From Salinicola acroporae (lineage in GTDB: Bacteria > Pseudomonadota > Gammaproteobacteria > Pseudomonadales > Halomonadaceae): DNA of 64,000 bases. The stretch spans positions 18,713-82,712 of the forward strand of contig NZ_PZJW01000008.1 in assembly GCF_003206615.1 (NCBI RefSeq), read 5' to 3'. Under the pieces are notes generated by a model, which did not search any database, had not been told where the DNA came from, and worked only from the letters and a program-made list of their open reading frames with translations. The number at the start of each line of letters is the position of its first letter. The first letter of the stretch is position 1. Of the stretch, positions 14,563-28,762 are shown piece after piece. Made by a program: the position numbers and the translations under genes.

Positions 14563-14661
14563 TCCGTCCTCCCATTGCGTTCTCGTCAGGATTCAGCCCC
14601 ATCGGCCTCGCCCCACCAGCGGCGGTAGTCGATGGTGCCACGCAGTTGGGGATCACATCAC

Positions 14662-16527
14662 ATGCGTTACAAGAAAAGCGCCGTTACCTCGGGCGTCGCG
14701 CTCGCGGTGGCCATGGCCACGCTGCCGGCCCATGCCCAGCAGGTCTCGGCCCGACAGCAGCAGCTCGACGACGTCCAGGTCACCGCCAATCGCCTGCCGC
14801 AATCGCAGGCCGACGTGCTGGCCAGCACCACCATCATCGACCGCGCCGAGATCGAGCGCAGCCAGGCCGACAGCGTGGTCGAACTGCTTCAGGGTCGCGC
14901 CGGCATCGAGATTGCCCAGACCGGCGCGCCGGGCAGTCTCACCAGCCTGTTCATGCGCGGCAGCGAATCCGACCATAGCGTCGTGCTGGTCGATGGCGTT
15001 CGGATCAACTCGGCGACGAGCGGCGGCGCCAGCCTTGAGTTCCTGCCGCCGGAAGCGATCGACCGCATCGAAATCGTCCGCGGCCCACGAGCGGCGGCCT
15101 ATGGCGCCGATGCCATCGGCGGCGTGATCCAGATATTCACCCGGCGCGGCGGCGATGGCACTCGAGGCGCGCTGAACCTGAGAGTCGGGGAGAACAGCAC
15201 CAACAAGCAGAATCTGTTCGTCTCCACGGGAGACGACGACACCCGCCTTAACGCCACCCTGTTTCGCCGCCACGGCGACGGCTTCAACGCCACCGAGGCC
15301 GACACCAGCGGCGAGCGGGATGGCTTCGAACGCAGCGGTGGTCAATTGGGACTCTCTCACCGTTTCAGCGATCGGGTCGACTTCAGCTTCAATGCCCTGC
15401 GCCAGAATTTCGACACCGATTATGACGACTGTTACCCCGCCAGCGCCCTGGGCGCGTCCCAGGGCTGCCGGACCAAGGGTTACCTGCAGACCTTCGGCGG
15501 TCAGCTCGATGTTGCGCTCGACACCGACTGGGACATGATTCTCACCGCCGGTCATTTCGACGAGCAGCGGGAGGAGCGTTACGCCGGCGAGCGCAACAGC
15601 CGCACCGAGTCACACCGCAACGAGCTGGGCTTGCAGCACCGCTTTACGCGGCAAAATGGCGTCGACGTGCTCGGGGTCGACTATCGCGGGGAGCGCCTCG
15701 ACTACGACGATTACGCCTATGGTTCGCGATATCAAAAGGACAGCCGCGAGAACTACGGCCTCTACGCCATGGTCCAACGCCAATATGGTCCCCACGAGGT
15801 GTCGGGCTCACTGCGCTACGACGATGATTCGCGGTTCGGCGACGAGACGACAGGTAATCTCGGCTATGCCTATCACCTGACCCGGTTCCAGCGGATCGGC
15901 GTCAGCTACGGCACCGCCTTCAAGGCGCCCAACCTGATCGATCTCTACGGACCTTACGGCACCAATCCCGATCTCGACGCCGAGACCTCGAAGACACTGG
16001 AGGCCTTCTGGGCCCTGGACCGCGGCCCTTGGGACGCTCGAGTGTCCGTGTTCGAAAGCCGGATCGACGATCTGATCAGCTATGACCCGACGACCTATAT
16101 TCCCTACAACGTCGATGAAGCGCGCATCCGGGGCGTCGAGTTGAGCGGCGGCTGGCAACGCGGCGGTCTTGCCCTGCGCGCCAGCCTGACTCACCAGGAT
16201 CCGGAGGATCGCGATACCGGCGACCGACTCAAGCGCCGCGCCAGGACGTTCGGCCGCGTCGATGCCGACTACAGCCTCGCTGCCTGGTCCGTTGGCACCA
16301 CCCTGCGCGCCGCGGGCGATCGCCGCGACACCCAGTTCTCCTTTCCCTACGGCGACACCACCACGGCCGGCTACGGCGTGGTCGACCTGCGCACCGCCTG
16401 GCAGGTCACGCCGACCGTCGAACTGTCTGCCAAGCTGGAAAACGCCTTCGACAAGGATTATCAGCTGGTGGATGGCTACAACACCCAGGACCGCTATCTC
16501 GAAGGTGGCGTGAAGCTCAGCTTCTGA
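14662..16527 (+). CDS. btuB: TonB-dependent vitamin B12 receptor
   Basis: 621 residues, the usual BtuB length. The signal peptide ends at AHAQQ. The TonB box region is DDVQVTANRLP, and the plug domain has SLFMRGSESDHSVVLVDGVRIN and IDRIEIVRGPRAAAYGADAIGGVIQIFT. The barrel closes with LKLENAFDKDYQLVDGYNT-like sequence and a terminal Phe. It imports cobalamin across the outer membrane. The start at 14662 (MRYKKSAV) gives a normal signal peptide; GGGGAT lies about 10 bases upstream. The ORF opens further upstream but nothing suggests use. The cobalamin riboswitch directly upstream strongly confirms the substrate. btuF and cobO lie about 10 kb away in the same window. Confidence 0.95.
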   Translation: MRYKKSAVTSGVALAVAMATLPAHAQQVSARQQQLDDVQVTANRLPQSQADVLASTTIIDRAEIERSQADSVVELLQGRAGIEIAQTGAPGSLTSLFMRGSESDHSVVLVDGVRINSATSGGASLEFLPPEAIDRIEIVRGPRAAAYGADAIGGVIQIFTRRGGDGTRGALNLRVGENSTNKQNLFVSTGDDDTRLNATLFRRHGDGFNATEADTSGERDGFERSGGQLGLSHRFSDRVDFSFNALRQNFDTDYDDCYPASALGASQGCRTKGYLQTFGGQLDVALDTDWDMILTAGHFDEQREERYAGERNSRTESHRNELGLQHRFTRQNGVDVLGVDYRGERLDYDDYAYGSRYQKDSRENYGLYAMVQRQYGPHEVSGSLRYDDDSRFGDETTGNLGYAYHLTRFQRIGVSYGTAFKAPNLIDLYGPYGTNPDLDAETSKTLEAFWALDRGPWDARVSVFESRIDDLISYDPTTYIPYNVDEARIRGVELSGGWQRGGLALRASLTHQDPEDRDTGDRLKRRARTFGRVDADYSLAAWSVGTTLRAAGDRRDTQFSFPYGDTTTAGYGVVDLRTAWQVTPTVELSAKLENAFDKDYQLVDGYNTQDRYLEGGVKLSF

Positions 16528-17793: not shown

Positions 17794-17810
17794 CTTAAGC
17801 TTCCTTTAAG
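17794..17810 (+). promoter_or_regulatory. Candidate PmrA-type box (CTTAAG-N5-TTTAAG)
   Basis: CTTAAG (17794-17799), 5 bases, TTTAAG (17805-17810). This matches the YTTAAK-N5-YTTAAK direct repeat bound by PmrA/QseB-type response regulators at every defined position. It sits about 150 bases upstream of the glycosyltransferase operon that the nearby PmrAB-like system would be expected to control. In such promoters the repeat overlaps the -35 region; no good -10 can be chosen by eye. Confidence 0.7.
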
Positions 17811-17958
17811 TCTAGCCCGCGACCATGGCGGCACGCCGCTCGCGCGCTCCGCGACACGATCAATCGAGCCAAACCGAACCGCCTGGGCCATACATTCAGA
17901 GAGGCGGGTTTCATCCATCGCCCAAGCCATCGGTCACCTCGCCAGGAAATTGCCATCA

Positions 17959-18756
17959 ATGCATTCATCCCTTCGCTCCCCGCTGCTCTCGATCCTGATT
18001 CCGGCCAAGGACGAGGCCGGCAACCTGCCAGGCCTGCTCGATGAGATCGAGCGGGCACTGGCGGATATCGATCACGAAGTCATCGTGGTCGACGACGCCT
18101 CGACCGACGGCACCTGGGATCTGCTGGAACGACGGGCCGCGCGGGATCCTCGCCTGCGCCCGATGCGTCACGCCCGGAGTGCGGGGCAAAGCACCTCGGT
18201 CTGGCAGGCGGCCAGGGCCGCGCGAGGTGTCTGGCTCGGGACGCTCGATGGCGACGGCCAGAACGACCCGGCCGATCTTCCCAGGCTGTTCGAACGCGCC
18301 CGGCGTGGGGATGTCGCACTGGTCGCGGGACACCGCACCAATCGCCGTGACGACTGGATCAAACGGTTGTCCTCCAGGGTGGCCAATCGCGTGCGCTCGG
18401 CGCTGCTGAACGACGCCACGCCGGATACCGGTTGCGGGTTGAAGGTGGTGCACCGCGAAGCCTTCATGTCACTCCCCTACTTCGACCACATGCACCGTTT
18501 TCTGCCGGCGCTGATCCGCGCCCAGGGCGGCCAGTGCGTCTCCGTTCCGGTCAACCACCGTCCCCGGGGGACCGGGGCATCGCACTATGGGCTCAACAAT
18601 CGCCTGTGGGTCGGGCTGGTGGATATGGTCGGCGTCATGTGGTTGCGCCGCCGTAGCCGGCTGCCCGCGGCGTGCCTCGAGCCGACTGACGCGATGACGG
18701 CGCCGGACGACGCGGGCGATCACCGGCACCCCGACGGTGAGGAGGTGACATCATGA
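17959..18756 (+). CDS. Family 2 glycosyltransferase (ArnC/DPM1-like polyprenyl-phosphate transferase)
   Basis: 265 residues. It is a GT-A fold with VIVVDDASTDGTWDLL (about residues 41-56), DGDGQNDPADLPRLF (97-111) and the DTGCGLKVVHREAF segment used by dolichyl/undecaprenyl-phosphate sugar synthases. It would charge a polyprenyl phosphate with a sugar (GlcA, GalA, Ara4N or similar) on the cytoplasmic face of the inner membrane. Its C-terminus has only one short hydrophobic segment, fewer than ArnC. It overlaps the LAB_N gene by 4 bases and heads a three-gene operon behind the PmrA-type box. The start at 17959 has AGGAAA about 10 bases upstream; an upstream in-frame extension would include the regulatory box and is rejected. 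Confidence 0.9.
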   Translation: MHSSLRSPLLSILIPAKDEAGNLPGLLDEIERALADIDHEVIVVDDASTDGTWDLLERRAARDPRLRPMRHARSAGQSTSVWQAARAARGVWLGTLDGDGQNDPADLPRLFERARRGDVALVAGHRTNRRDDWIKRLSSRVANRVRSALLNDATPDTGCGLKVVHREAFMSLPYFDHMHRFLPALIRAQGGQCVSVPVNHRPRGTGASHYGLNNRLWVGLVDMVGVMWLRRRSRLPAACLEPTDAMTAPDDAGDHRHPDGEEVTS

Positions 18757-19049
18757 ACCAGGAGTGGATATGGGTGATCATCGGCTTTATCGGCCAGACC
18801 CTGTTTTCTGCCCGTTTCATCATCCAGTGGCTCGCCAGCGAACGCGCCAGGCGCAGCATCATTCCCGTCGCATTCTGGTTCTTCAGCATCGGCGGCGGTG
18901 CCACCCTGCTGGCCTACGCGATCTACCGCCGCGACCCGGTATTCATCGCCGGCCAAGGTGCCGGCCTGGTCATCTACGTTCGCAATCTGATGCTGATCCG
19001 GCGGGAGAAGCACCAGGCTAGCGTCCCGGAAACCCCCTCGAATTCGTGA
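18753..19049 (+). CDS. LAB_N-domain membrane protein
   Basis: 98 residues with three hydrophobic segments (WIWVIIGFIGQTLFSARFIIQWLASE, IIPVAFWFFSIGGGATLLAYAIY, FIAGQGAGLVIYVRNLML). This is the lipid A biosynthesis N-terminal (LAB_N) domain: RFIIQWLASERARRSIIPVAFWFFS and the GQGAGLVIYVRNL end are typical. Such small proteins accompany polyprenyl-phosphate glycosyltransferases and ArnT-like enzymes and may help flip or present the lipid-linked sugar. That role is inference. It overlaps its neighbours on both sides (ATGA and GTGA), so all three products are made together. Confidence 0.9.
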   Translation: MNQEWIWVIIGFIGQTLFSARFIIQWLASERARRSIIPVAFWFFSIGGGATLLAYAIYRRDPVFIAGQGAGLVIYVRNLMLIRREKHQASVPETPSNS

Positions 19050-20809
19050 ACGAGACCTCGCTCATGCGGCGCTTCCTGTCCGATCCCTCACAGGCCCATT
19101 ATCGGCGTGCCTGGCTGCTATTGCTGCTGTTCACTACCGTGCTGCTGGGCATCGGTATCGGCCTGCGGGACCCATGGCCGGCCGACGAACCGCGTTTCGC
19201 CCTCAACGCGCTGGAGATGTTGCGCACCGGCCAGTTCTGGTTTCCGCATCGCGGCGGCGAGCTCTATCCCGACAAGCCGCCGGTGTTCATGTGGGCCTCG
19301 GCGCTGAGCATCTGGCTGACCGGCTCCGTGCGCTGGGGATTCTTGATTCCCACCACGCTTGCGGGTATCGGCACCCTGCTGCTGACGGTGGATCTGTGTC
19401 GCCGCCTTTACGGCCGCCGCATCGCGCTGATGTCGGGGCTGGCGCTGCTGAGCGCGTTCCAGTTCGTGCTGCAGGCCAAGACCGCGCAGATCGACATGAT
19501 GCTGACCTTCTGTACCACGCTCGCCACCTATGGCCTGCTCCGCCACGCCCTGCTGGGCCCGGCCCGGCGCTGGTGGCTGGTGGGCTGGGCAGCGATGGGG
19601 CTGGGCATCATCACCAAAGGTGTCGGCATCCTGCCACTGACGCTGCTTCCGGCCTGGCTATGGATGGCCTACTCCGGGCGTTCTCGCGGACGAATCGCCC
19701 CCATCACGCTCAAGGCTGCCCTCCAGGGGGTAGCCGTCATGGTGGCCTGCATCGCGGCCTGGGCCGTGCCGATGATCGTGATGGCGACCTGGGGAGACGA
19801 TCCCTCGCTGGCAGCCTACCGAGACAACATTCTGTTCAAGCAGACCGGCCAGCGGTATGCCGACTCCTGGACCCACCTCGAACCCTGGTATTACTACCTG
19901 GTCAGCGTGCTGCCCTGGGCATGGATGCCATTGGTCCTGGCCTTTCCGTGGGCACTCCCCGCCTGGTGGCGTCGGCTGAGACGCTCCGATCCGCGAATCC
20001 TGCTGCCGCTCAGTTCGGTGATACTGATCGTGACCTTCTTTTCCCTCTCGCCCGGCAAGCGCGGCGTCTACATGCTGCCGACCTTGCCGTTGCTGGTATT
20101 GGCGATGGCACCGCTGCTGCCGGGACTTGTCACCCGAAAGGGCCTGCAGTGGCTGGGTTTCGGCCTGCTGGCATTGCTGGGCGGGCTGCTGCTGGCCGCG
20201 GGCATTCTCGGCGCTGCCGGTCTGCCCGCGCTGACCAAGGTCGCCGAGCGTCACGCCGTCTCCCCGTGGGCCTGGTGGATCGTGATCGGCGCCATCGCCG
20301 TGGGGCTGCTAGTCATCCTGCGGCCTCGCCGCGGACTCTGGGCACTGGCCAGCTGGCTGGTGGTGTTCTGGGTGAGCTGGTCGACCTGGGGCTACGCGCT
20401 GCAGGATCATGCGCGCTCGCCGCGTGACATGATGGCGCAGGTGCGGTCGATCACTGGCGCCGACACCTGGTTGGCCATGCCGGACTTCGACGAGGAGTTC
20501 CTGCTCCAGTCCCGCCAGCCCAGCATCCAGTTCGGCGACCGCACCCCCGCCAGTGCCCAGTTCCGGCGGGCGTTCGCCTGGCTGCAGCAGGATCGAAGCC
20601 GCTGGATGTTCGCGATGCAGCGCCAGGCCGAGGATTACGACTGCATCGACCGGGACCAGATTCATGACCTGGGCATTCAGAATGGCGACGACTGGTGGCT
20701 CATCCCGGCAACCGCCGTCGATCGGTGCCAGGGCGACGCCAACGCAGCACCGCTGTTCGTGGCACCCACCACGCTGCCGGATCACACCGGCAACGCGCCC
20801 AGGGTCTGA
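19046..20809 (+). CDS. ArnT-family glycosyltransferase (GT83-like), first copy
   Basis: 587 residues with about 12 hydrophobic segments. It is an ArnT/PMT-type GT-C enzyme: the catalytic loop after helix 1 contains PADEPRFALNALEM (Asp47-Glu48), followed by YPDKPPVFMW (about 75-83) and, later, FFSLSPGKRGVYMLPTLPLLVLA. These enzymes move a sugar from a polyprenyl phosphate to lipid A or core on the periplasmic side. The C-terminal about 100 residues are periplasmic. The start is the GTG at 19046, which overlaps the LAB_N stop; ATG at 19064 is an alternative. The aminoarabinose genes arnA, arnB, arnD, arnE and arnF are not present, so the sugar is probably not L-Ara4N. Confidence 0.92.
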   Translation: MNETSLMRRFLSDPSQAHYRRAWLLLLLFTTVLLGIGIGLRDPWPADEPRFALNALEMLRTGQFWFPHRGGELYPDKPPVFMWASALSIWLTGSVRWGFLIPTTLAGIGTLLLTVDLCRRLYGRRIALMSGLALLSAFQFVLQAKTAQIDMMLTFCTTLATYGLLRHALLGPARRWWLVGWAAMGLGIITKGVGILPLTLLPAWLWMAYSGRSRGRIAPITLKAALQGVAVMVACIAAWAVPMIVMATWGDDPSLAAYRDNILFKQTGQRYADSWTHLEPWYYYLVSVLPWAWMPLVLAFPWALPAWWRRLRRSDPRILLPLSSVILIVTFFSLSPGKRGVYMLPTLPLLVLAMAPLLPGLVTRKGLQWLGFGLLALLGGLLLAAGILGAAGLPALTKVAERHAVSPWAWWIVIGAIAVGLLVILRPRRGLWALASWLVVFWVSWSTWGYALQDHARSPRDMMAQVRSITGADTWLAMPDFDEEFLLQSRQPSIQFGDRTPASAQFRRAFAWLQQDRSRWMFAMQRQAEDYDCIDRDQIHDLGIQNGDDWWLIPATAVDRCQGDANAAPLFVAPTTLPDHTGNAPRV

Positions 20810-20920
20810 CGACAGCGAGTTTCTCGCCCCAGGGAGGGCTCCTCTGGGATCCGGGCACCTTGCGAGGCGTTGAATCTGGCGCCCCGAAACCGGGGCCAGA
20901 CTCATGGCTCGAGGCCGGGA

Positions 20921-22321
20921 TCAGGCCACGGCGTCCAGCCAGTCGAGCCGCACCCTCAGTCCGCCGTCGTCGCGGTTGGCGAGAGACAGGCTCAGGCGCT
21001 GGCGCTCGGCGATCTCAACGGCGATCGACAGCCCCAGACCGCTGCCGCTGATGCGCTGGTCGGAAGCCCGCTGGAAGCGTTGGGTCACGGCTTCCAGCAT
21101 CGATTCGGGGATTCCCGGCCCGGAGTCTTCGATGCTCAACCACGGTCGCTGGCCGTCGATCCCCACGGTAACGACGACCCGCCCTCCCGGCGGGGTGTAA
21201 CGCAGCGCGTTGTCCATCAGGTTGCGGATCAGGATCCCCAGCTCGGTGGCGTTGCCCATCACGGTGACGGGCTTGCCCTCGATGATTTCCAGCGCCTGTT
21301 GCTGCGACTCGGCCAGCGGCCATAGATCGGCAGCCAGATCCATGACCAGCGCCGGTAACGCGACCGGTTCGGGAGCCGGTCGCGGCTGATCGATATCGAG
21401 CCGGGCCAGCAGCAGCAGCTGTTCGACCACTCGCTGCAACCGCTCGATGCCGTTGTAGGCCTTGTCCAGCGCACTGGGCTCACCGAAGCGGGCGTTGTCC
21501 AGATGAATCTTCATCGCGGCCAGTGGCGTGCGCAGCTCGTGGGCGGCATCGGCGGTGAAGCGGCGTTCGCGCTCCAGCGTCTGCCCGAGTCGATCGATGA
21601 AGTCATTGAGCGCGCCACGCAGGGTCTGCAACTCCCTAGGTACCGCCACCCGGATCGGGCTGAGGTCTTTTTCGTCCCGTGATCTGACCTGGCGCGACAG
21701 ATGATCGATGGGCCCCAGACCACGTCGGATCAGCCGCGCGATCAGCCAGATCAGAACAGGCAATGCCAGCAGTAACGGCACGAAATTGCCCAGCGCGACC
21801 TTGTTGGAGAGCTCGTCCTGGAAAGACTCCCTCAAACCGACGCTGATCCAGCGACCACCGTCTACCGGCATACTGAAGACCCGCCACCGGTGCCCCTCGT
21901 AGGTGACCCAGCGATGTCCGGTCTTACGTGGGGGAGGAAATCCCTCGTCATTTTCGCCCCAGCGGGAACCCAGCAGGATGGGGCGAAGCGCGTCGTCCCA
22001 GAAGCCCACTGACAGCATCCGCTCCTCGTGATCATAGAGCTTCGGATCGGTATCCGGAGAAAGCTGCGGCTCGGCCTGGCCATACCAGTGGGCGAAATGG
22101 CCCGGCTGAGAGAGCTGCTCCGCGATGGCGGCATAGGCTTGCGGCGTGGTGTCGGTATCGACGAGCCCCGACACCACGCGCGCCTGCAGGCTCAACTGGG
22201 CGTCGAAGATCTCTTCCATCTCATGACGGGTGATCAGGTAGGCGGCGGTCACGGCCAGGGCCATGACCAGAAGCAGAACACCGGCGAGGGTAAAATTGAG
22301 ATAGCGGCGAATCGATGTCAT
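20921..22321 (-). CDS. Sensor histidine kinase, PmrB/QseC type
   Basis: 466 residues. Membrane helix 1 is at about residues 11-31 and helix 2 at about 178-198, enclosing a periplasmic sensor region of about 145 residues. A HAMP-like linker is followed by the H-box RRFTADAAHELRTPLAAMK (phospho-acceptor His261) and a HATPase domain with NLMDNALRYTPPGG, DSGPGIP and GSGLGLSIA. It phosphorylates the response regulator whose gene overlaps its start by 4 bases. The periplasmic region shows acidic patches (EMEE, DHEER, ENDE) that could bind metals. I cannot confirm a PmrB-type iron motif. It lies between two glycosyltransferase operons on the opposite strand. Confidence 0.93.
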   Translation of the reverse strand: MTSIRRYLNFTLAGVLLLVMALAVTAAYLITRHEMEEIFDAQLSLQARVVSGLVDTDTTPQAYAAIAEQLSQPGHFAHWYGQAEPQLSPDTDPKLYDHEERMLSVGFWDDALRPILLGSRWGENDEGFPPPRKTGHRWVTYEGHRWRVFSMPVDGGRWISVGLRESFQDELSNKVALGNFVPLLLALPVLIWLIARLIRRGLGPIDHLSRQVRSRDEKDLSPIRVAVPRELQTLRGALNDFIDRLGQTLERERRFTADAAHELRTPLAAMKIHLDNARFGEPSALDKAYNGIERLQRVVEQLLLLARLDIDQPRPAPEPVALPALVMDLAADLWPLAESQQQALEIIEGKPVTVMGNATELGILIRNLMDNALRYTPPGGRVVVTVGIDGQRPWLSIEDSGPGIPESMLEAVTQRFQRASDQRISGSGLGLSIAVEIAERQRLSLSLANRDDGGLRVRLDWLDAVA

Positions 22322-22980
22322 GCCACGCGGCTATCCAGGCGATAACCGATCCCTCTGACGGTGGTGATCAGGTGCTTGTCGAGCTTGCGCCGCAAGTGAT
22401 GGACATGGACCTCGAGCGCGTTGGAGCCGACCTCCTCGCCCCAGCCATAGAGCAGGCTTTCCAGCTTGGGCCGGGACATCACCTTGTCGCTGTTTCTGGC
22501 CAGTTCCAGCAGCAGCGCGAACTCGCGGCGCCCGAGGGTGATCGTGTCGCCTCGCCAACTGACCACATGCTGCGACTCATCGATCGTCAACTGTCCAATC
22601 GAAAGCAGTTGGGTCGAACGCCCCTCGGCGCGCCGGGTCACCACCCGCATCCGCGCCAGCAGCTCCTGCAGATCGAACGGCTTGAGGACGTAGTCGTCGG
22701 CGCCCGCATCCAACCCCTGGATGCGCTGCTCGACGGCGTCGCGGGCGGTCAGGATCAGGACCGGGATCGAATGCTGCCGACGGATCTCCTTCAATACCAT
22801 CAACCCATCGATATCCGGCAGCCCCAGGTCGAGAATGACCAGCGAGAACGGCTCGACGCGCACCGCTTCCAGTGCGTCGCGACCTTTCAGCAGCCAATCG
22901 ACGACGTAACCCTCTCGGATCAGGGCAGTGCGGATGCCGTCACCCAGCAAGGGATCATCTTCCACCAACAATACGCGCAT
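22318..22980 (-). CDS. OmpR-family response regulator, PmrA/QseB type
   Basis: 220 residues. The receiver domain has the acidic pair EDD at 8-9, the phospho-acceptor Asp51 in VILDLGLPD, the switch Thr in VLILTARD and Lys in YVLKPFD. The C-terminal winged helix (LGRREFALLLELARNSDKVMSRPKLESLLYGW...NALEVHVHHLRRKLDK) is of the PmrA/QseB subgroup. These recognise CTTAA-N5-CTTAA repeats. Three such sites are seen next to this locus, one of them in the divergent promoter region of this very gene. The start at 22980 has GGAAACCGCA upstream. It overlaps the kinase gene as ATGA. Confidence 0.94.
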   Translation of the reverse strand: MRVLLVEDDPLLGDGIRTALIREGYVVDWLLKGRDALEAVRVEPFSLVILDLGLPDIDGLMVLKEIRRQHSIPVLILTARDAVEQRIQGLDAGADDYVLKPFDLQELLARMRVVTRRAEGRSTQLLSIGQLTIDESQHVVSWRGDTITLGRREFALLLELARNSDKVMSRPKLESLLYGWGEEVGSNALEVHVHHLRRKLDKHLITTVRGIGYRLDSRVA

Positions 22981-23052
22981 TGCGGTTTCCGTCTTGGTTT
23001 ACCCGTGGAGATCCGGTGATCTCACTTTTCTCGTACATTGAGGCATACATGT

Positions 23053-23069
23053 CTTAACGATTTCTTATC
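23053..23069 (+). promoter_or_regulatory. Degenerate PmrA-type box on the + strand
   Basis: CTTAACGATTTCTTATC: two CTTA-start half-sites separated by exactly 5 bases, 9 of 12 to YTTAAK-N5-YTTAAK. It lies between the response-regulator gene and the divergent ArnT-like gene and points towards the latter. Confidence 0.5.
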
Positions 23070-23130
23070 GCCTCCTGCCCTCGAGATACCTGTGGGTGAG
23101 CCACCGGGCGCCGACCGTCTTTGCCGGCCG

Positions 23131-23147
23131 GATAATGTTTCGTTAAG
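23131..23147 (-). promoter_or_regulatory. Degenerate PmrA-type box on the - strand
   Basis: Read on the minus strand: CTTAACGAAACATTATC, the same CTTAACGA start and TTATC end as the + strand box at 23053-23069, with the same spacing. It points towards the response-regulator gene and could be an autoregulatory site. Confidence 0.45.
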
Positions 23148-23195
23148 CCAGCAGCGCCACAGTGGCCTCTCGAAGCCACCTCGGGACGTCATCGC

Positions 23196-24818
23196 GTGAT
23201 CAGCATCCAGAAATTTTCGCCCTTATCGTACACGCTACGGTTACAGGCCAGGCATCGAGACGCCCTCGTCATCCTCGTGCTGTGGGCGATGTCGCTGGCC
23301 TGCGCGCTGTTCAGGCCGTTGATGCCGATCGACGAGACGCGCTACGTCTCGGTGGCCTGGGAGATGTGGCACAACCACTCGCTTTTGCTGCCGCTCATGA
23401 ATGGCGAAGCCTACGCCGACAAGCCTCCGCTGCTGTTCTGGCTGATCCAGTCGGGCTGGACGCTGTTCGGCGTCAATGACTGGTGGCCCAAGTCGATCTC
23501 GCCGCTGGCCTCGCTGATCGCGATGATCCATCTCTATCGAATCGCACGGCGACTGGGTTACGCCGGTAGTCAGGCGCGTCTGGCACCGATGGTGCTTGGC
23601 GCCATGCTGATGTGGAATCTCTACGCTGGCGCATTGATGTTCGACATACTGCTGAGTGCCTGCCTGCTGGGCGCCATCTCGCCATTGATAGCGGGTCAGT
23701 TCACCTCACGCAAGGCCATCATCAGTGGACTGTGGCTGGGCTTGGCGCTGCTGGCCAAGGGGCCGGCGGCCTTCGTGACGTTGACGCCGATTGTGCTGTC
23801 GATTCCGCTCTGGCGCGCCTCGCCGTTGGGCGGGCCCGGCCGGCGGCGCCTGGCCTTCGCCTTGGTGCTCGGGATCTCGATGCTATTGACCTGGGCGCTG
23901 TCCGCCGCCTGGCTGGGCGGTGCCGCCTACGCCAGGGACCTGCTCTGGGGTCAGAGTGTCGACCGCCTGCAGCACGCCATGGCCCACGCGCGCCCGGCGT
24001 GGTGGTACCTGCCGTGGCTGCCACTGCTGACCTTCCCGTGGTCGCTGTGGCCCGCCGGGTGGCCACGCCTCCCACGGCAGCGCCATCAGCGACTGGCCTG
24101 GATCTGGCTGATCGCACCGTTACTGGTCTTCTCGTCGATCAGCGGCAAGCAGATCCACTATCTGATGCCGCTGCTACCTGCACTGGCGCTGCTGGTCATG
24201 GACCGCCTGGGTCAGGTCGCCCCGGACAAGCCATTTCGCCTACGGTCGGCGGCAACGGCGATGATGCTGCTGGGCGTGGCGGCGCTCGGCCTGGCGGGGT
24301 TCGGCCGCGCCGAGGTCGTCGGCTCGATGATTTCGCCTTTCGGCGCACTGGTGCTGCTCGCGTTCGCCGCCATCGTATGGCGGCAACGCTGGCGAAGCAG
24401 CGCCCAGGCTACCCGCGGCCTCGCGCTCGGCACGGCTGTCGCCACGCTGATAACGGCTCAGTTGGTGCTGGCCCCGCTCTGGAGCCATTACGACATTGGC
24501 GCGCCGAGCAGACTGTTGGCCAGACTCGAAGCCAGTGGCGTCCCCGTAGCCTTCAATGGCGACAACTATCAGGCCACCTTCCAGTTTGCCGGACGCCTGG
24601 AAAGGCCACTGGTCACGCTCTCCGGCAATCCCGCGGACCTCTGCCGGTTCGGGCAACGGTCTCCAACCGGCTGGATCGTGGGTCGAGAGCGCGACCTGGG
24701 CCCGCTGATCGTCCAGGATGGCGCCGCCCACGTATTCGACTATCGTGGCGGAAAGCTGGACATCGTGCCTGTCACCGCGCTGTCATTTAGTCCCCGACGA
24801 CCTGCTTGCGACTGGTAG
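23196..24818 (+). CDS. ArnT-family glycosyltransferase (GT83-like), second copy
   Basis: 540 residues, a GT-C membrane protein with about 12 helices. Catalytic loop 1 has MPIDETRYVSVAWEM (Asp46-Glu47) followed by YADKPPLLFWLIQ (about 73-85), and a later conserved loop is SSISGKQIHYLMPLLPALALLVMD. These match ArnT, which moves a sugar from undecaprenyl phosphate to lipid A. It is clearly a paralogue of the first copy but divergent from it, suggesting a second acceptor site or a second donor. The start is taken as GTG at 23196; no other start retains helix 1. It is followed after 58 bases by the UDP-glucuronate epimerase gene, and it is divergent from the response-regulator gene. Confidence 0.91.
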   Translation: MISIQKFSPLSYTLRLQARHRDALVILVLWAMSLACALFRPLMPIDETRYVSVAWEMWHNHSLLLPLMNGEAYADKPPLLFWLIQSGWTLFGVNDWWPKSISPLASLIAMIHLYRIARRLGYAGSQARLAPMVLGAMLMWNLYAGALMFDILLSACLLGAISPLIAGQFTSRKAIISGLWLGLALLAKGPAAFVTLTPIVLSIPLWRASPLGGPGRRRLAFALVLGISMLLTWALSAAWLGGAAYARDLLWGQSVDRLQHAMAHARPAWWYLPWLPLLTFPWSLWPAGWPRLPRQRHQRLAWIWLIAPLLVFSSISGKQIHYLMPLLPALALLVMDRLGQVAPDKPFRLRSAATAMMLLGVAALGLAGFGRAEVVGSMISPFGALVLLAFAAIVWRQRWRSSAQATRGLALGTAVATLITAQLVLAPLWSHYDIGAPSRLLARLEASGVPVAFNGDNYQATFQFAGRLERPLVTLSGNPADLCRFGQRSPTGWIVGRERDLGPLIVQDGAAHVFDYRGGKLDIVPVTALSFSPRRPACDW

Positions 24819-24876
24819 AATTCGGTCGCGGCTCACCGGCCCGAGCGGTGAAGATTCTTTCAATACAGGAACCAGC

Positions 24877-25866
24877 ATGAAAATTCTCGTCACCGGCGCG
24901 GCCGGATTCATCGGCTTTCACCTTGCCGACCGCCTCGCTCGCGAGGGCCACAGCGTCGTCGCGCTGGACAATCTCAACGACTACTACGCCGTGTCGCTCA
25001 AGCAGGCACGCAGGGAACGATTGACGGGCATCCCCTTTCATCGCATCGATATCGCGGACCTCGAATCGCTGGAGACGCTTTTCGCGCGCGAACGCTTCAC
25101 CCATGTCGTCAATCTCGCGGCGCAGGCCGGGGTACGCCACTCCGTGGAGCATCCCCACGAGTACGGTCGCAGCAATCTGACGGGGTTTCTCAACCTGCTC
25201 GACGTGTGCAAGCGACACGACATCGAACATCTTCTCTACGCCTCCTCCAGCTCGGTCTACGGGCGCCAGAAGACGCTGCCCTTCCGGGAAACCGACCCGG
25301 TGGACCAGCCTGCGTCGATCTACGCCGCCACCAAGCGCGCCAACGAGATGATGGCCTACAGCTACGCCGACCTGCACCGGCTGCCCGCCACCGGGATGCG
25401 ATTCTTCACGGTCTATGGCCCGTGGGGACGCCCGGACATGGCACCTTGCCTGTTCGCGTCGAGCCTGCTGCGGGGAGAGCCTATCGAGATCTTCAATCAC
25501 GGTCGCATGGCGAGGGACTTTACCTACATCGACGACGTGGTCGAATGCATCGTGCGGCTGCTGCCTCATGCACCACACCCCGATGCTGACCGGCCCGCGC
25601 CCCACGAAATCTACAACCTGGGCCGCGGCAAGCCGGTCGCCCTGCTCGACTTCGTCGACACGCTGGAAAAGCGTCTGGGAGTCGATGCCACGAGACATTT
25701 CAAGCAGATGCAGCCGGGTGATGTCGAGCGAACCTGGGCGGATACTCACAAGCTGCGATCGGTCATCGACTACACCCCTCGCGTCTCCCTCGAGGAAGGC
25801 ATCGATCAGTTCGTCACCTGGCTGCTCGACTACCGCGAGCTGATGCTGGACGCCATGGCCGCTTGA
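24877..25866 (+). CDS. UDP-glucuronate 4-epimerase
   Basis: 329 residues, extended short-chain dehydrogenase family. The NAD motif GAAGFIG lies at residues 7-13, the signature DNLNDYYAVSLKQARRERL at 31-49, LAAQAGVRHSVEHPHEY at 80-96, catalytic YAATK at 149-153 and the hallmark RFFTVYGPWGRPDMA further on. This set is specific for enzymes converting UDP-glucuronate to UDP-galacturonate. The start at 24877 has AGGAA 6 bases upstream. It sits in the same operon as the second ArnT-like gene, so it probably provides the donor sugar for envelope modification. Direct use in capsule or O-antigen is possible, but no such cluster is near. Confidence 0.93.
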   Translation: MKILVTGAAGFIGFHLADRLAREGHSVVALDNLNDYYAVSLKQARRERLTGIPFHRIDIADLESLETLFARERFTHVVNLAAQAGVRHSVEHPHEYGRSNLTGFLNLLDVCKRHDIEHLLYASSSSVYGRQKTLPFRETDPVDQPASIYAATKRANEMMAYSYADLHRLPATGMRFFTVYGPWGRPDMAPCLFASSLLRGEPIEIFNHGRMARDFTYIDDVVECIVRLLPHAPHPDADRPAPHEIYNLGRGKPVALLDFVDTLEKRLGVDATRHFKQMQPGDVERTWADTHKLRSVIDYTPRVSLEEGIDQFVTWLLDYRELMLDAMAA

Positions 25867-25954: not shown

Positions 25955-26263
25955 ATGCCGTTGAGCAAGACCCGAACCAGTTTCTATCGCCGCCTCTACG
26001 TCGCCCACCTGATCGATGCCGGCCTCGCCGCCAGCGTTCCGGCCATCGTCGAGCTCAGTGGCATGCCGCGCCGCACGGCCCAGGACACCCTGGCGGCGCT
26101 CGCGGAACTCGATATCCGCTGCGAGTTCGAGCAGTCCCGCGGCGAACGCCACCAGATCGGCCGCTACGTGATCCGTGATTGGGGCCCCATCTCTTCGAGC
26201 TGGGTGAATGACCATGCCGAGCAGATCGCCGGCGCCCTGGACTACCCGCTGCCCAGGCCGTGA
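25955..26263 (+). CDS. Small winged-helix DNA-binding protein
   Basis: 102 residues. The N-terminal two-thirds (TRTSFYRRLYVAHLIDAG, SVPAIVELSGMPRRTAQDTLAALAELDI) forms a helix-turn-helix with a following wing (GRYVIRDWGPI). It looks like the small MarR/FeoC-like winged-helix proteins of unknown target found in pseudomonads and halomonads. It lies 46 bases before cobO on the same strand and is probably co-transcribed with it. Whether it regulates cobO or anything else in the B12 pathway is unknown. Confidence 0.75.
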   Translation: MPLSKTRTSFYRRLYVAHLIDAGLAASVPAIVELSGMPRRTAQDTLAALAELDIRCEFEQSRGERHQIGRYVIRDWGPISSSWVNDHAEQIAGALDYPLPRP

Positions 26264-26309
26264 GTTCGCCAAGGCCCTCCCTCCCGACCATCAACAATCG
26301 GAGTCGCCC

Positions 26310-26909
26310 ATGAGCGATCGCCAGCAGCGTCATCAGCAAGCCATGCAGAAGCTCAAATCCCATGTCGACGAGAAGGTCGCCGCCGCTACCGAGCAGCGAG
26401 GCCTGCTGCTGGTCTTCACCGGCAACGGCAAGGGCAAGACCACGGCGGCGTGGGGCACGGTGACCCGGGCGCTGGGCTACGGTTACCGTGTCGGCGTGAT
26501 CCAGTTCATCAAGGGACTCTGGGAGTGCGGCGAACGCGAGCGGCTGATCGAGGATCCCCATCTCGAGGTCCACGTCATGGCGACGGGTTTCACCTGGGAT
26601 ACCCAGAACCGCGACAGCGATACCGCCGCCTGCCTCGAGGTCTGGCGCGAAGCCGAGCGGCTGCTCGCCGATCCCGAGGTCTACCTGGTGGTACTCGACG
26701 AGATCACCTATATGCTCAAGTTCGGCTATCTCGACATCGACACGATCAAGCGCGCCATCGACAATCGCCCACCGGAGCAGAGCGTCATCGTCACCGGGCG
26801 CAACGCCCATCGCGGGCTGGTCGAGATGGCGGACACGGTCACCGACATGCACGACACCAAGCACGCCTTCGATGCGGGAGTGCAGGCGCGCCGCGGCATC
26901 GACTACTGA
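26310..26909 (+). CDS. cobO: Cob(I)yrinic acid a,c-diamide adenosyltransferase
   Basis: 199 residues, CobO/CobA/BtuR family. The P-loop VFTGNGKGKTTAAWG follows an N-terminal helix, then RVGVIQFIKGLWECGE, the core EVYLVVLDEITYMLKFGYLD and the C-terminal VIVTGRNAHRGLVEMADTVTDM. It attaches the adenosyl group of ATP to the cobalt of corrinoids, needed for adenosylcobalamin. The start at 26310 has GGAG about 7 bases upstream. Together with btuB and btuF in the same window this gives B12 uptake and activation. Its end overlaps the convergent btuF by 7 bases. Confidence 0.95.
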   Translation: MSDRQQRHQQAMQKLKSHVDEKVAAATEQRGLLLVFTGNGKGKTTAAWGTVTRALGYGYRVGVIQFIKGLWECGERERLIEDPHLEVHVMATGFTWDTQNRDSDTAACLEVWREAERLLADPEVYLVVLDEITYMLKFGYLDIDTIKRAIDNRPPEQSVIVTGRNAHRGLVEMADTVTDMHDTKHAFDAGVQARRGIDY

Positions 26910-27820
26910 GAAAAGCGATCTCCGCCCAATGCCCTGCACACCTCTCGCACCGCCTGGATCATGCGCGGCCCGGGGCGGCTGATCGTATCCGGGTCCAGCG
27001 TGTACAACGCGCCGTTACGCACCGCCGGCAGCTCGTCACGGCCGGCCCAGAACGCTTTCCAGCGGTCGTCGGCACCGGCTGCCAGGATGATCTCCGGCTG
27101 CGCTTCGAGCAGCGATTCCCAGCCAATCTGCGGCACCAGCACCGAGGCCTCTTCGAACAGCGGCACGCCGCCGCAGTGACGAATGACCTGAGTCACGATC
27201 TGCCCGCCGGCCAGCGTGGTCAATGGCGACTGCCCCAACTGGTAGAAGACCCGCGGTGCCGGCGACAGCGTCTGTGAACTGCTTCTCAGCCCTCCCTCGA
27301 ACCGCGAGGCGGCCTGTTCTCCGGCAGTATCATGACCCGTCAGGCGGCCGATATCGCGCAGATCGTCGGCGATCTGCGCGAGGCGCCGCGGTTCGCTGCG
27401 GTAAACGGGGATGCCCAGCCGGTCCAGTTGCTCGATCAGCGATGCCGGGGTGCCACTGCCCCAGGCCAGCACCAGATCCGGCTGCTTGGCGACGATCGCT
27501 TCGAGGGGAATGCCACGGTAGCTGCCGACCCGGTCGATCTCTTTCGCCGCCGATGGATAGTCGCTGCCCTCGATGACGCCGACCAGTTGGCCGCCGGCGC
27601 CGACGGCGTAACTCATCTCCACCAGATGCGGCGCCAGCGCCACGAGCCGCTGGGCGGGCCGGGACAGCGCGACGGTACGCCCGCTGTCATCCACGACGCT
27701 GATGGCGTCGCTCGCCGCCAACGCGTGCAGCGGCAACAACAGCGCGCCGATGGCGGCGAGCGCCGGCCGCCACCGGAAGCACGACATCGCGGCATGCCAC
27801 AATGGGGAAAGAGAGCGCAT
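26903..27820 (-). CDS. btuF: Cobalamin-type ABC transporter binding protein
   Basis: About 305 residues from the ATG at 27820. The signal sequence is MSCFRWRPALAAIGALLLPLHALA (an alternative start at 27787 begins there). The mature part has AQRLVALAPHLVEMSYAVGAGGQLVGVIEGSDYP, QPDLVLAWGSGTPASLIEQLDRLGIPVY and LVPQIGWESLLEAQPEIILAAG. This is a BtuF-like binding fold of class III. Its place next to cobO supports cobalamin, though iron-siderophore use cannot be excluded. No permease or ATPase genes (btuC, btuD) are adjacent. It overlaps cobO tail to tail. Confidence 0.85.
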   Translation of the reverse strand: MRSLSPLWHAAMSCFRWRPALAAIGALLLPLHALAASDAISVVDDSGRTVALSRPAQRLVALAPHLVEMSYAVGAGGQLVGVIEGSDYPSAAKEIDRVGSYRGIPLEAIVAKQPDLVLAWGSGTPASLIEQLDRLGIPVYRSEPRRLAQIADDLRDIGRLTGHDTAGEQAASRFEGGLRSSSQTLSPAPRVFYQLGQSPLTTLAGGQIVTQVIRHCGGVPLFEEASVLVPQIGWESLLEAQPEIILAAGADDRWKAFWAGRDELPAVRNGALYTLDPDTISRPGPRMIQAVREVCRALGGDRFSQ

Positions 27821-27943
27821 CACCGGTTCTGCAAGTTGGGCTGAAGGTGTCGGCGAGCATAGCATGGGAACCGAATGACGCCGGAGGCGTCTATGCAGCG
27901 CCCACATCTTGCACGACATCCGTTTTTCGATAGAGGAAGTTCC

Positions 27944-28762
27944 ATGTCTCGAGACGCTCTGTTCAATCGTTCGGCCCACTCTCACGCCTCATCCCGCCGC
28001 AGTCGCCTGGCCCGTCACCTGGGCCTGGGGCTCGCCGGGATGATGGCGACCGTGGCATTGGCCGCGCCAGCGCTCGCCGACAAGACGCCACACCAGCTCC
28101 ATGTCCAGGCCAACGCCACGATCGATGTCGCGCCGGATCAGGCAACGCTGAATGCGCGGTTGTGGGAGCTGACGCCGGCCCAGGTTCAGGGAGAAGAGTC
28201 CTCGGGCGACAGTGACGCCATCAAGACAGCGCGTGACCGGCTCGAAAGCCGCACCGGCGAGTTGATCCGCACCCTGGAAAACGCCGGCATCGACAGCCAG
28301 CAGATCCGAGCCGGCTCGCTCAGCGTGCGCCCGGACATCGTCCAGGCCGGCACCCGGGGCGACGACGACTCGCCGTCGAAGGTGCGCACCCGGATCGAAC
28401 GGTCGGTGTCGTTGACGCTGAACGACCTCGACCGGCTGCCGCGGGTGCTCGATGCCCTGACCACCGCTGGCGTCGACTCCCTCGACGGTGTCAGCTATGG
28501 CCTACAGGACAGCGACGCGGCCGACGACCGTGCCCTCAAGCAGGCCCTGGAGCGCGCGCGCCAGAAGGCCGAGATGATGGCCGACACCCTGAATGTCGAC
28601 CTGGGCGATGTCGTCAATATCGAAGAGACCACGGCGCCCCGCTATCAACCGCAGATGATGATGCGCGCCGCCGAGGCCGACAGCGCCAGCTCGGCCGAAT
28701 ATCGCAGCGGCGAGATCAGTATCGACGCCGGTGTCAGCGTGACCTGGGAAATCGACGACTGA
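27944..28762 (+). CDS. SIMPL-domain periplasmic protein (YggE-like)
   Basis: 272 residues with a signal peptide (HLGLGLAGMMATVALAAPALA). The SIMPL (DUF541) domain follows: HVQANATIDVAPDQATLNARLWE, GELIRTLENAGIDSQQIRAGSLSVRPD, RSVSLTLNDLDRLPRVLDALTTAGVDSLDGVSYGL and a C-terminal DLGDVVNIEET. YggE/BP26-type proteins form periplasmic ring-like oligomers and affect oxidative-stress tolerance; the molecular role is not settled. The start at 27944 has AGGAAG about 6 bases upstream. The gene is convergent with the NSS transporter. Confidence 0.88.
   Translation: MSRDALFNRSAHSHASSRRSRLARHLGLGLAGMMATVALAAPALADKTPHQLHVQANATIDVAPDQATLNARLWELTPAQVQGEESSGDSDAIKTARDRLESRTGELIRTLENAGIDSQQIRAGSLSVRPDIVQAGTRGDDDSPSKVRTRIERSVSLTLNDLDRLPRVLDALTTAGVDSLDGVSYGLQDSDAADDRALKQALERARQKAEMMADTLNVDLGDVVNIEETTAPRYQPQMMMRAAEADSASSAEYRSGEISIDAGVSVTWEIDD

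Follow-up and report, generated by a model that had tools for sequence, protein, structure and literature searches.

Gene content of the cassette

A seven-gene cassette with a predicted role in envelope glyco-modification was analysed in a 64,000-nucleotide stretch of Salinicola acroporae (the window; positions 18,713 to 82,712 of the forward strand of contig NZ_PZJW01000008.1, assembly GCF_003206615.1). The window is a chromosome region; the assembly comprises 4.37 Mb and is 99.99% complete. The cassette, at positions 17,794–25,866 of the window, consisted of a family 2 glycosyltransferase (GT2), a LAB_N protein, two ArnT-family GT-C transferases (ArnT1 and ArnT2), a sensor histidine kinase (HK), a response regulator (RR), and a UDP-glucuronate 4-epimerase (Table 1). 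This gene set had been put forward in an original prediction made from the sequence alone, and checking of the gene calls by open reading frame (ORF), Pfam, and NCBIfam analysis bore it out, including the overlaps between GT2 and LAB_N (ATGA) and between LAB_N and ArnT1 (GTGA). GT2 represents the catalytic domain of an ArnC/DPM1-like polyprenyl-phosphate glycosyltransferase, with no hydrophobic helix and no C-terminal membrane helices. The DE.R and DKPP motifs were kept in both transferases, as DEPRF and DKPPV in ArnT1 and as DETRY and DKPPL in ArnT2. Comparative genomics, which the original prediction had proposed as a check of co-occurrence, revealed all seven genes together in every Salinicola locus compared.

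Table 1. Positions of the cassette genes, upstream elements, and the tandem LAB_N protein (window coordinates unless a locus is named).
Feature	Position	Strand	Evidence or remark
PmrA-type box CTTAAG-CTTCC-TTTAAG	17794..17810	+	148 bp upstream of GT2
GT2	17959..18756	+	PF00535 1.4e-25; PDB ArnC E 4e-22, DPMS 1e-13
LAB_N, 98 aa, three-helix membrane protein	18753..19049	+	PF07578 1.4e-32
ArnT1, ArnT-family GT-C transferase	19046..20809	+	PF13231 1.1e-14; 5ezm (ArnT) E 3e-13, 410 residues
HK, QseC/PmrB-like sensor histidine kinase	20921..22321	-	NCBIfam QseC, PmrB matches
RR, QseB/PmrA-like response regulator	22318..22980	-	NCBIfam QseB, PmrA matches; PDB BasR/PmrA
Degenerate box CTTAAC-GATTT-CTTATC	23053..23069	-	Conserved block between RR and ArnT2, on the RR side
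Second conserved block GATAATGTTTCGTTAAG	23131..23147	+	Alignment; 48 bp upstream of ArnT2
ArnT2, second GT-C transferase	23196..24818	+	PF13231 7.6e-11; 5ezm E 1.2e-8
UDP-glucuronate 4-epimerase	24877..25866	+	PDB 5u4q 2.7e-114; 6zl6 3.4e-45
Tandem LAB_N	L205:6657-7448; also L226-L229	- (L205)	TTG start; beside epimerase-GT2-ArnT

The regulator and the PmrA-type box

The box upstream of GT2 fitted the published PmrA motif HTTAAD-N5-HTTAAD (PMC9431647) with a consensus score of 12/12, which was reached by none of 200 shuffles. The pattern CTTAAGN5YTTAAG occurred once in the 4.37-Mb genome, and the control gave 0. Alignment of 18 Salinicola copies revealed the box as the conserved element of the GT2 upstream region; 14 of 19 copies scored 12/12 and 18 of 19 scored at least 11/12. 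The strict 17-mer was present exactly twice in genome G007, once at each of two cassette copies, and in genome G018 the strict form stood upstream of both the RR gene and GT2. A 12/12 box also precedes GT2 in five loci of other halomonad genera (L049, L050, L055, L071, and L077). In two Halomonas loci (L072 and L073) the epimerase leads the operon and a perfect box lies directly before it, so that the box is retained upstream of GT2 or of a leading epimerase despite differing gene order. The box was not found in the unrelated non-halomonad lineages scored, such as L078, L092, L103, and L111. Among halomonads without LAB_N, it was observed before EptA genes that are either fused to PAP2 (L215) or in one operon with it (L216). 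This distribution makes it probable that the box acts as a switch for lipid A modification within the Halomonadaceae.

CTTAA-type boxes had been claimed before both operons. The one before GT2 could be upheld by its perfect score and its uniqueness in the genome; the second, at 23053, scored 9/12, which 18.5% of shuffled versions of this stretch also attained. The latter was rejected as a PmrA box by score and retained as a genus-conserved block. Between RR and ArnT2, two blocks are conserved in the genus: this one and that at 23131, which the original prediction did not contain.

Comparison with NCBIfam gave the RR 231.3 bits against PmrA (cut-off 330) and 233.9 against QseB (cut-off 345), and the HK 188.4 bits against PmrB (cut-off 314) and 231.5 against QseC (cut-off 475). 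The proposed PmrAB/QseBC-type identity of the regulator was therefore kept as a resemblance and not as membership, since both proteins were nearly equal to both models and below all cut-offs. In the PDB, the RR matched BasR/PmrA best (1.8e-49), and the two are alike in the region of the recognition helix. Regulation of the GT2-LAB_N-ArnT1 operon by the adjacent RR is judged very likely.

CTTAAGN5CTTAAG boxes were also seen before DsbD and RR-HK genes in halomonads and on a Paracoccus plasmid (L217, L221, and L244:1512), which perhaps represent a second regulon of this type. The same box precedes genes of small CBS-domain proteins of unassigned role in several halomonads (L185, L187, L215, and L222).

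Sugar, LAB_N, acceptor, and mobility

Searches of the whole genome revealed no match over the cut-off for ArnA, ArnB, or ArnD, and for ArnD no match at all; the claimed absence of the arn set was thereby confirmed genome-wide for these three proteins. EptA was not found in this genome either, and four nucleotide-sugar dehydrogenases scored over the cut-off. The equivalog cut-offs were not reached by GT2 (82.2 vs 529 bits for ArnC), ArnT1 (75.8 vs 567 bits for ArnT), or ArnT2 (74.3 vs 567). Alignment of the epimerase to the B. cereus UDP-glucuronate 4-epimerase 6zl6 showed that Tyr149, Lys153, Arg185, and the Ser/Thr cluster are kept, comprising the YxxxK motif and the carboxylate grip. Arg185 of UDP-glucuronate 4-epimerase grips the product carboxylate (PMC12338863), and the same activity is known for Uge, which serves lipopolysaccharide (LPS) synthesis in K. 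pneumoniae (PMC11282780). In a motif scan of the loci, FFTVYGPWGRPDM was carried by 13 of 14 high-scoring epimerases.

Loci of the sister family were read as stop-to-stop frames. With 3 kb around each locus examined, the epimerase was located in the GT2-LAB_N-ArnT operon at six of seven single-LAB_N loci, and the linkage of all four genes was also observed at L205 and L237–L241. A linked epimerase was likewise found in Acidobacteria, Paracoccus, Lysobacter, and one metagenome-assembled genome of the Rhizobiaceae. Plasmid pILYOP01 of Ilyobacter polytropus (Fusobacteriota; L246) encodes HK, RR, GT2, LAB_N, two GT39 proteins, and an epimerase with the RPD motif, the same seven gene kinds as in the Salinicola cassette. 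With the carboxylate-gripping residues retained in the epimerase, and with its gene linked to GT2-LAB_N-ArnT operons in different families and phyla, the transferred sugar is likely to be galacturonic acid, added by an Rgt-like and not an Arn-like route. The earlier description of the locus as an alternative to aminoarabinose modification stood as far as independence from Arn is concerned; the sugar comparison was corrected, as the epimerase linkage points to an acidic and not a cationic substituent. The polymyxin or salt tolerance suggested in the original prediction found no support in the present data. In the literature searched, no paper was recognised that deals with galacturonic acid under PmrA control or with its occurrence in the lipid A of Halomonas.

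The AlphaFold2 model of LAB_N had a pLDDT of 80. When it was compared with the PDB using Foldseek, the 15 best matches were all SemiSWEETs, followed by the mitochondrial pyruvate carrier and SWEET; the best match had a probability of 1.00, TM values of 0.70/0.82, a root-mean-square deviation (rmsd) of 1.5, and an E value of 0.015. VIA alignment of the model to SemiSWEET gave a Z of 11.7 (91 aligned, rmsd 2.4). At the sequence level, weak MtN3_slv matches occurred in 8 of 60 LAB_N members (best E 0.0011), the four best PDB matches of the LAB_N profile were SemiSWEETs at weak E values of 0.1–0.18, and a single-sequence PDB search gave no match. From its model, LAB_N, to which the original prediction had assigned no role, is predicted to have the three-helix SemiSWEET/PQ-loop fold. 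Its invariant residues, determined over 60 sequences, include R21, Q25-W26, S29-E30, D61, and R77-N78. A tandem LAB_N-LAB_N protein with 3+1+3 helices, the single one being a linking helix, was present in five genomes of one genus. Its model matched SWEET best by Foldseek (probability 0.87, TM only 0.4), while VIA placed PnuC first (Z 12.2) and SWEET at Z 7.8. The tandem model is consistent with SWEET but is not proof, as helical bundles reach such values by chance.

In an even draw of genomes over the phylum, GT2 adjoined LAB_N in 27 of 29 loci, and 70 of 73 LAB_N-adjacent GT2s were short and without a membrane helix. A plasmid collection yielded 19 records with GT2 relatives, 11 of them with a LAB_N match near GT2; an Aeromonas record among the 19 carried a divergent LAB_N. 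A divergent subfamily, from Aeromonas and others, was seen at L209, L210, and L249:4684-5061, with weaker Pfam scores (for example 68 bits in L210), and it adjoins GT2 in L210 and L249. DedA-type proteins are polyprenyl-phosphate transporters. In plasmid operons of Salinimonas, Glaciecola, and Alteromonas (one of four Alteromonas records inspected), a DedA/VTT protein stood between GT2 and GT39 where LAB_N is otherwise found, and two of the DedA-type operons also encode EptA. The PQ-loop family includes MPDU1, which is needed for all reactions dependent on dolichyl-phosphate monosaccharides and whose function was described as unknown in 2012 (PMC3281891). We infer that GT2-LAB_N-ArnT may parallel DPM1-MPDU1-PMT. 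The chances appear evenly balanced that LAB_N moves or presents the polyprenyl-phosphate sugar between GT2 and ArnT. A wider proposal, for which the chances fall slightly short of even, is that LAB_N could be a flippase or utilisation factor for polyprenyl-phosphate monosaccharides that has so far escaped notice, a bacterial counterpart of MPDU1 with the SemiSWEET fold in GT2/GT-C pathways of many phyla, placed in Salinicola under a PmrA-type switch together with galacturonic acid transfer. No report joining PQ-loop proteins and undecaprenyl phosphate was found in a literature search, in which the LAB_N domain was named by a single paper.

The closest solved relative of ArnT1 and ArnT2 was ArnT (5ezm). 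Plasmids of Alteromonas and Salinimonas encode a GT39 protein approximately 39–40% identical to ArnT1 in the same operon as EptA and DgkA. A locus of the Bradyrhizobiaceae (L094) has the order GT-C, PAP2, GT2, LAB_N, in which the first three genes match the order rgtF/lpxE/rgtE of Oligotropha, where these homologues have consecutive locus tags and the lipid A bears two galacturonic acid residues (PMC7663294). These comparisons make lipid A/LPS, that is lipid A or core, a fairly likely acceptor. The original idea of an envelope glyco-modification locus that has its own PmrA-type regulator and lies in a genome lacking the Arn set finds good support in the conservation of the locus, in the box, and in the occurrence of the box before EptA in related genera.

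Genes for a PA0069-type radical SAM protein and for a cobalamin adenosyltransferase flank the cassette. A TonB receptor, cobalamin adenosyltransferase, and periplasmic binding protein lie around it (window 14632-16527 and 26208-27985), as if the locus had been inserted into a cobalamin region. Genomes G002 and G007 have a second copy of the cassette in common (99.9% identity over 16.7 kb), with a G+C content of approximately 0.52 compared to 0.64–0.65. Genes for a TraI_2/MobH-type relaxase and for a heptosyltransferase lie close to it, and a related copy occurs in G008. These second copies (L045 in G002, L046 in G007, and L047 in G008) are complete seven-gene cassettes of low G+C away from the usual locus, accompanied by a DedA-PAP2 fusion gene, the heptosyltransferase gene, and a spare RR, with the TraI_2 relaxase gene in L045 and L046. 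The second cassette resembles the cargo carried by integrative conjugative elements.

Proposed pathway, alternatives, and known systems

A self-contained, regulated uronic-acid envelope-modification cassette comprising all of the following steps is moderately likely. The epimerase would convert UDP-glucuronate to UDP-galacturonic acid, and on the cytoplasmic side the DPM1/ArnC-type GT2 would load the sugar onto undecaprenyl phosphate. LAB_N, probably as a SemiSWEET-like dimer, would carry or present the lipid-linked sugar across the inner membrane. At the periplasmic face ArnT1 and ArnT2 would then transfer it, with two positions on lipid A or the inner core as the most likely targets. The HK/RR pair would turn on GT2-LAB_N-ArnT1 via the PmrA-type box and probably also activate itself and ArnT2-epimerase through degenerate sites.

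The step assigned to LAB_N may be explained otherwise within the same cassette, with LAB_N as a membrane anchor or activator of the helix-less GT2, as DPM2/DPM3 are for DPM1. The uniformly short GT2s and the translational coupling of the GT2 and LAB_N genes fit such a role, as do a very weak DPM3 Pfam match in one of 60 LAB_N members (E 0.14) and the match of LAB_N to part of the model of LpxB, a cytoplasmic-side enzyme. The predicted fold is however shared with a transporter family, LAB_N also occurs as a tandem protein of seven helices, DedA-type proteins replace it, and one sister genus has the tandem LAB_N on the opposite strand, outside the epimerase-GT2-ArnT operon; an anchor is accordingly considered unlikely. 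The acceptor could also be another periplasmic glycolipid, a polysaccharide, or a protein, as GT-C transferases use many acceptors and both transferases lie under the ArnT cut-off. This is rather unlikely, given that ArnT is the only solved relative found for them, that a relative of ArnT1 (39% over its length) shares an operon with EptA and DgkA, and that the same box precedes EptA in relatives. Transfer of a different sugar, such as galactosamine or one like 4-amino-4-deoxy-L-arabinose, with the epimerase a mere neighbour serving capsule or O-antigen, would agree with the cationic groups that PmrA systems normally add and with the near-identical box of the A. baumannii galactosamine gene naxD (PMC9431647). 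Against it stand the genome-wide absence of ArnA, ArnB, and ArnD, the epimerases with the UDP-glucuronate 4-epimerase signature at the start or end of this operon in a number of families and phyla, and the box directly before the epimerase in two Halomonas loci, which render it quite improbable.

Several observations weigh against the galacturonic acid pathway outlined above. The sugar is read solely from gene linkage and not from GT2 specificity, and ArnT1 and ArnT2 are far under the ArnT cut-off, which would also fit core or a different glycolipid as acceptor. In Azospirillum thermophilum, GT2 adjoins GT39 with neither LAB_N nor DedA in the operon. A LAB_N match was also absent in Caulobacter, which is reported to have RgtE/RgtF homologues (PMC7663294), and therefore LAB_N is not universally needed. 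The RR/ArnT2 intergenic sites are below significance by score. No PmrA-type box was seen at the sister-family loci, and regulation is therefore not part of the ancient module.

The passage of polyprenyl-phosphate-linked monosaccharides across membranes is an unsolved problem in organisms from bacteria to humans. Should LAB_N be a PQ-loop carrier, a 98-residue protein in a simple operon would make this problem directly testable. The cassette would further represent a PmrA-type system that controls an acidic and not a cationic LPS modification, and one that has a mobile form.

Among known systems, the Rgt system of Rhizobium and Mesorhizobium (RgtE, RgtD, and RgtF) shares the polyprenyl-phosphate-loading GT2, the GT-C transferases, and the UDP-glucuronate 4-epimerase, and linkage of the epimerase to such a GT2 and GT-C transferases was found in the window and in other families and phyla. 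LAB_N is present in the GT-C/PAP2/GT2 locus of the Bradyrhizobiaceae, where the likeness is one of gene order. Salinicola differs in its own PmrA-type two-component system, its two ArnT-type transferases, and the lack of a PAP2 lipid A phosphatase in the operon. The Arn pathway (ArnC and ArnT under PmrAB) likewise has an undecaprenyl-phosphate sugar made by a GT2, transfer by the ArnT family, and a PmrA-type box, whereas Salinicola is without ArnA, ArnB, and ArnD, is predicted to use another sugar, and would have LAB_N in place of the ArnE/F flippase. The galactosamine route of Francisella and Acinetobacter (FlmF2-NaxD-FlmK) resembles the cassette in the PmrA-type box of A. baumannii naxD and in its GT2/ArnT logic; in A. 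baumannii the transport and attachment enzymes were stated to be unidentified (PMC9431647). Unlike this route, the cassette has no deacetylase and has a uronic-acid epimerase instead. LAB_N resembles the SemiSWEET, SWEET, and PQ-loop proteins, including MPDU1, in its predicted fold and in its tandem form, but differs in a conserved charged motif (R21, QW, SE, DPVF, RN), and the likeness to MPDU1 is one of predicted fold family. DedA/VTT transporters occupy the LAB_N position in three Alteromonadaceae genera but belong to another protein family. As a whole, the cassette appears to be a variant on the Arn and Rgt pathways in which a new role for LAB_N is plausible.

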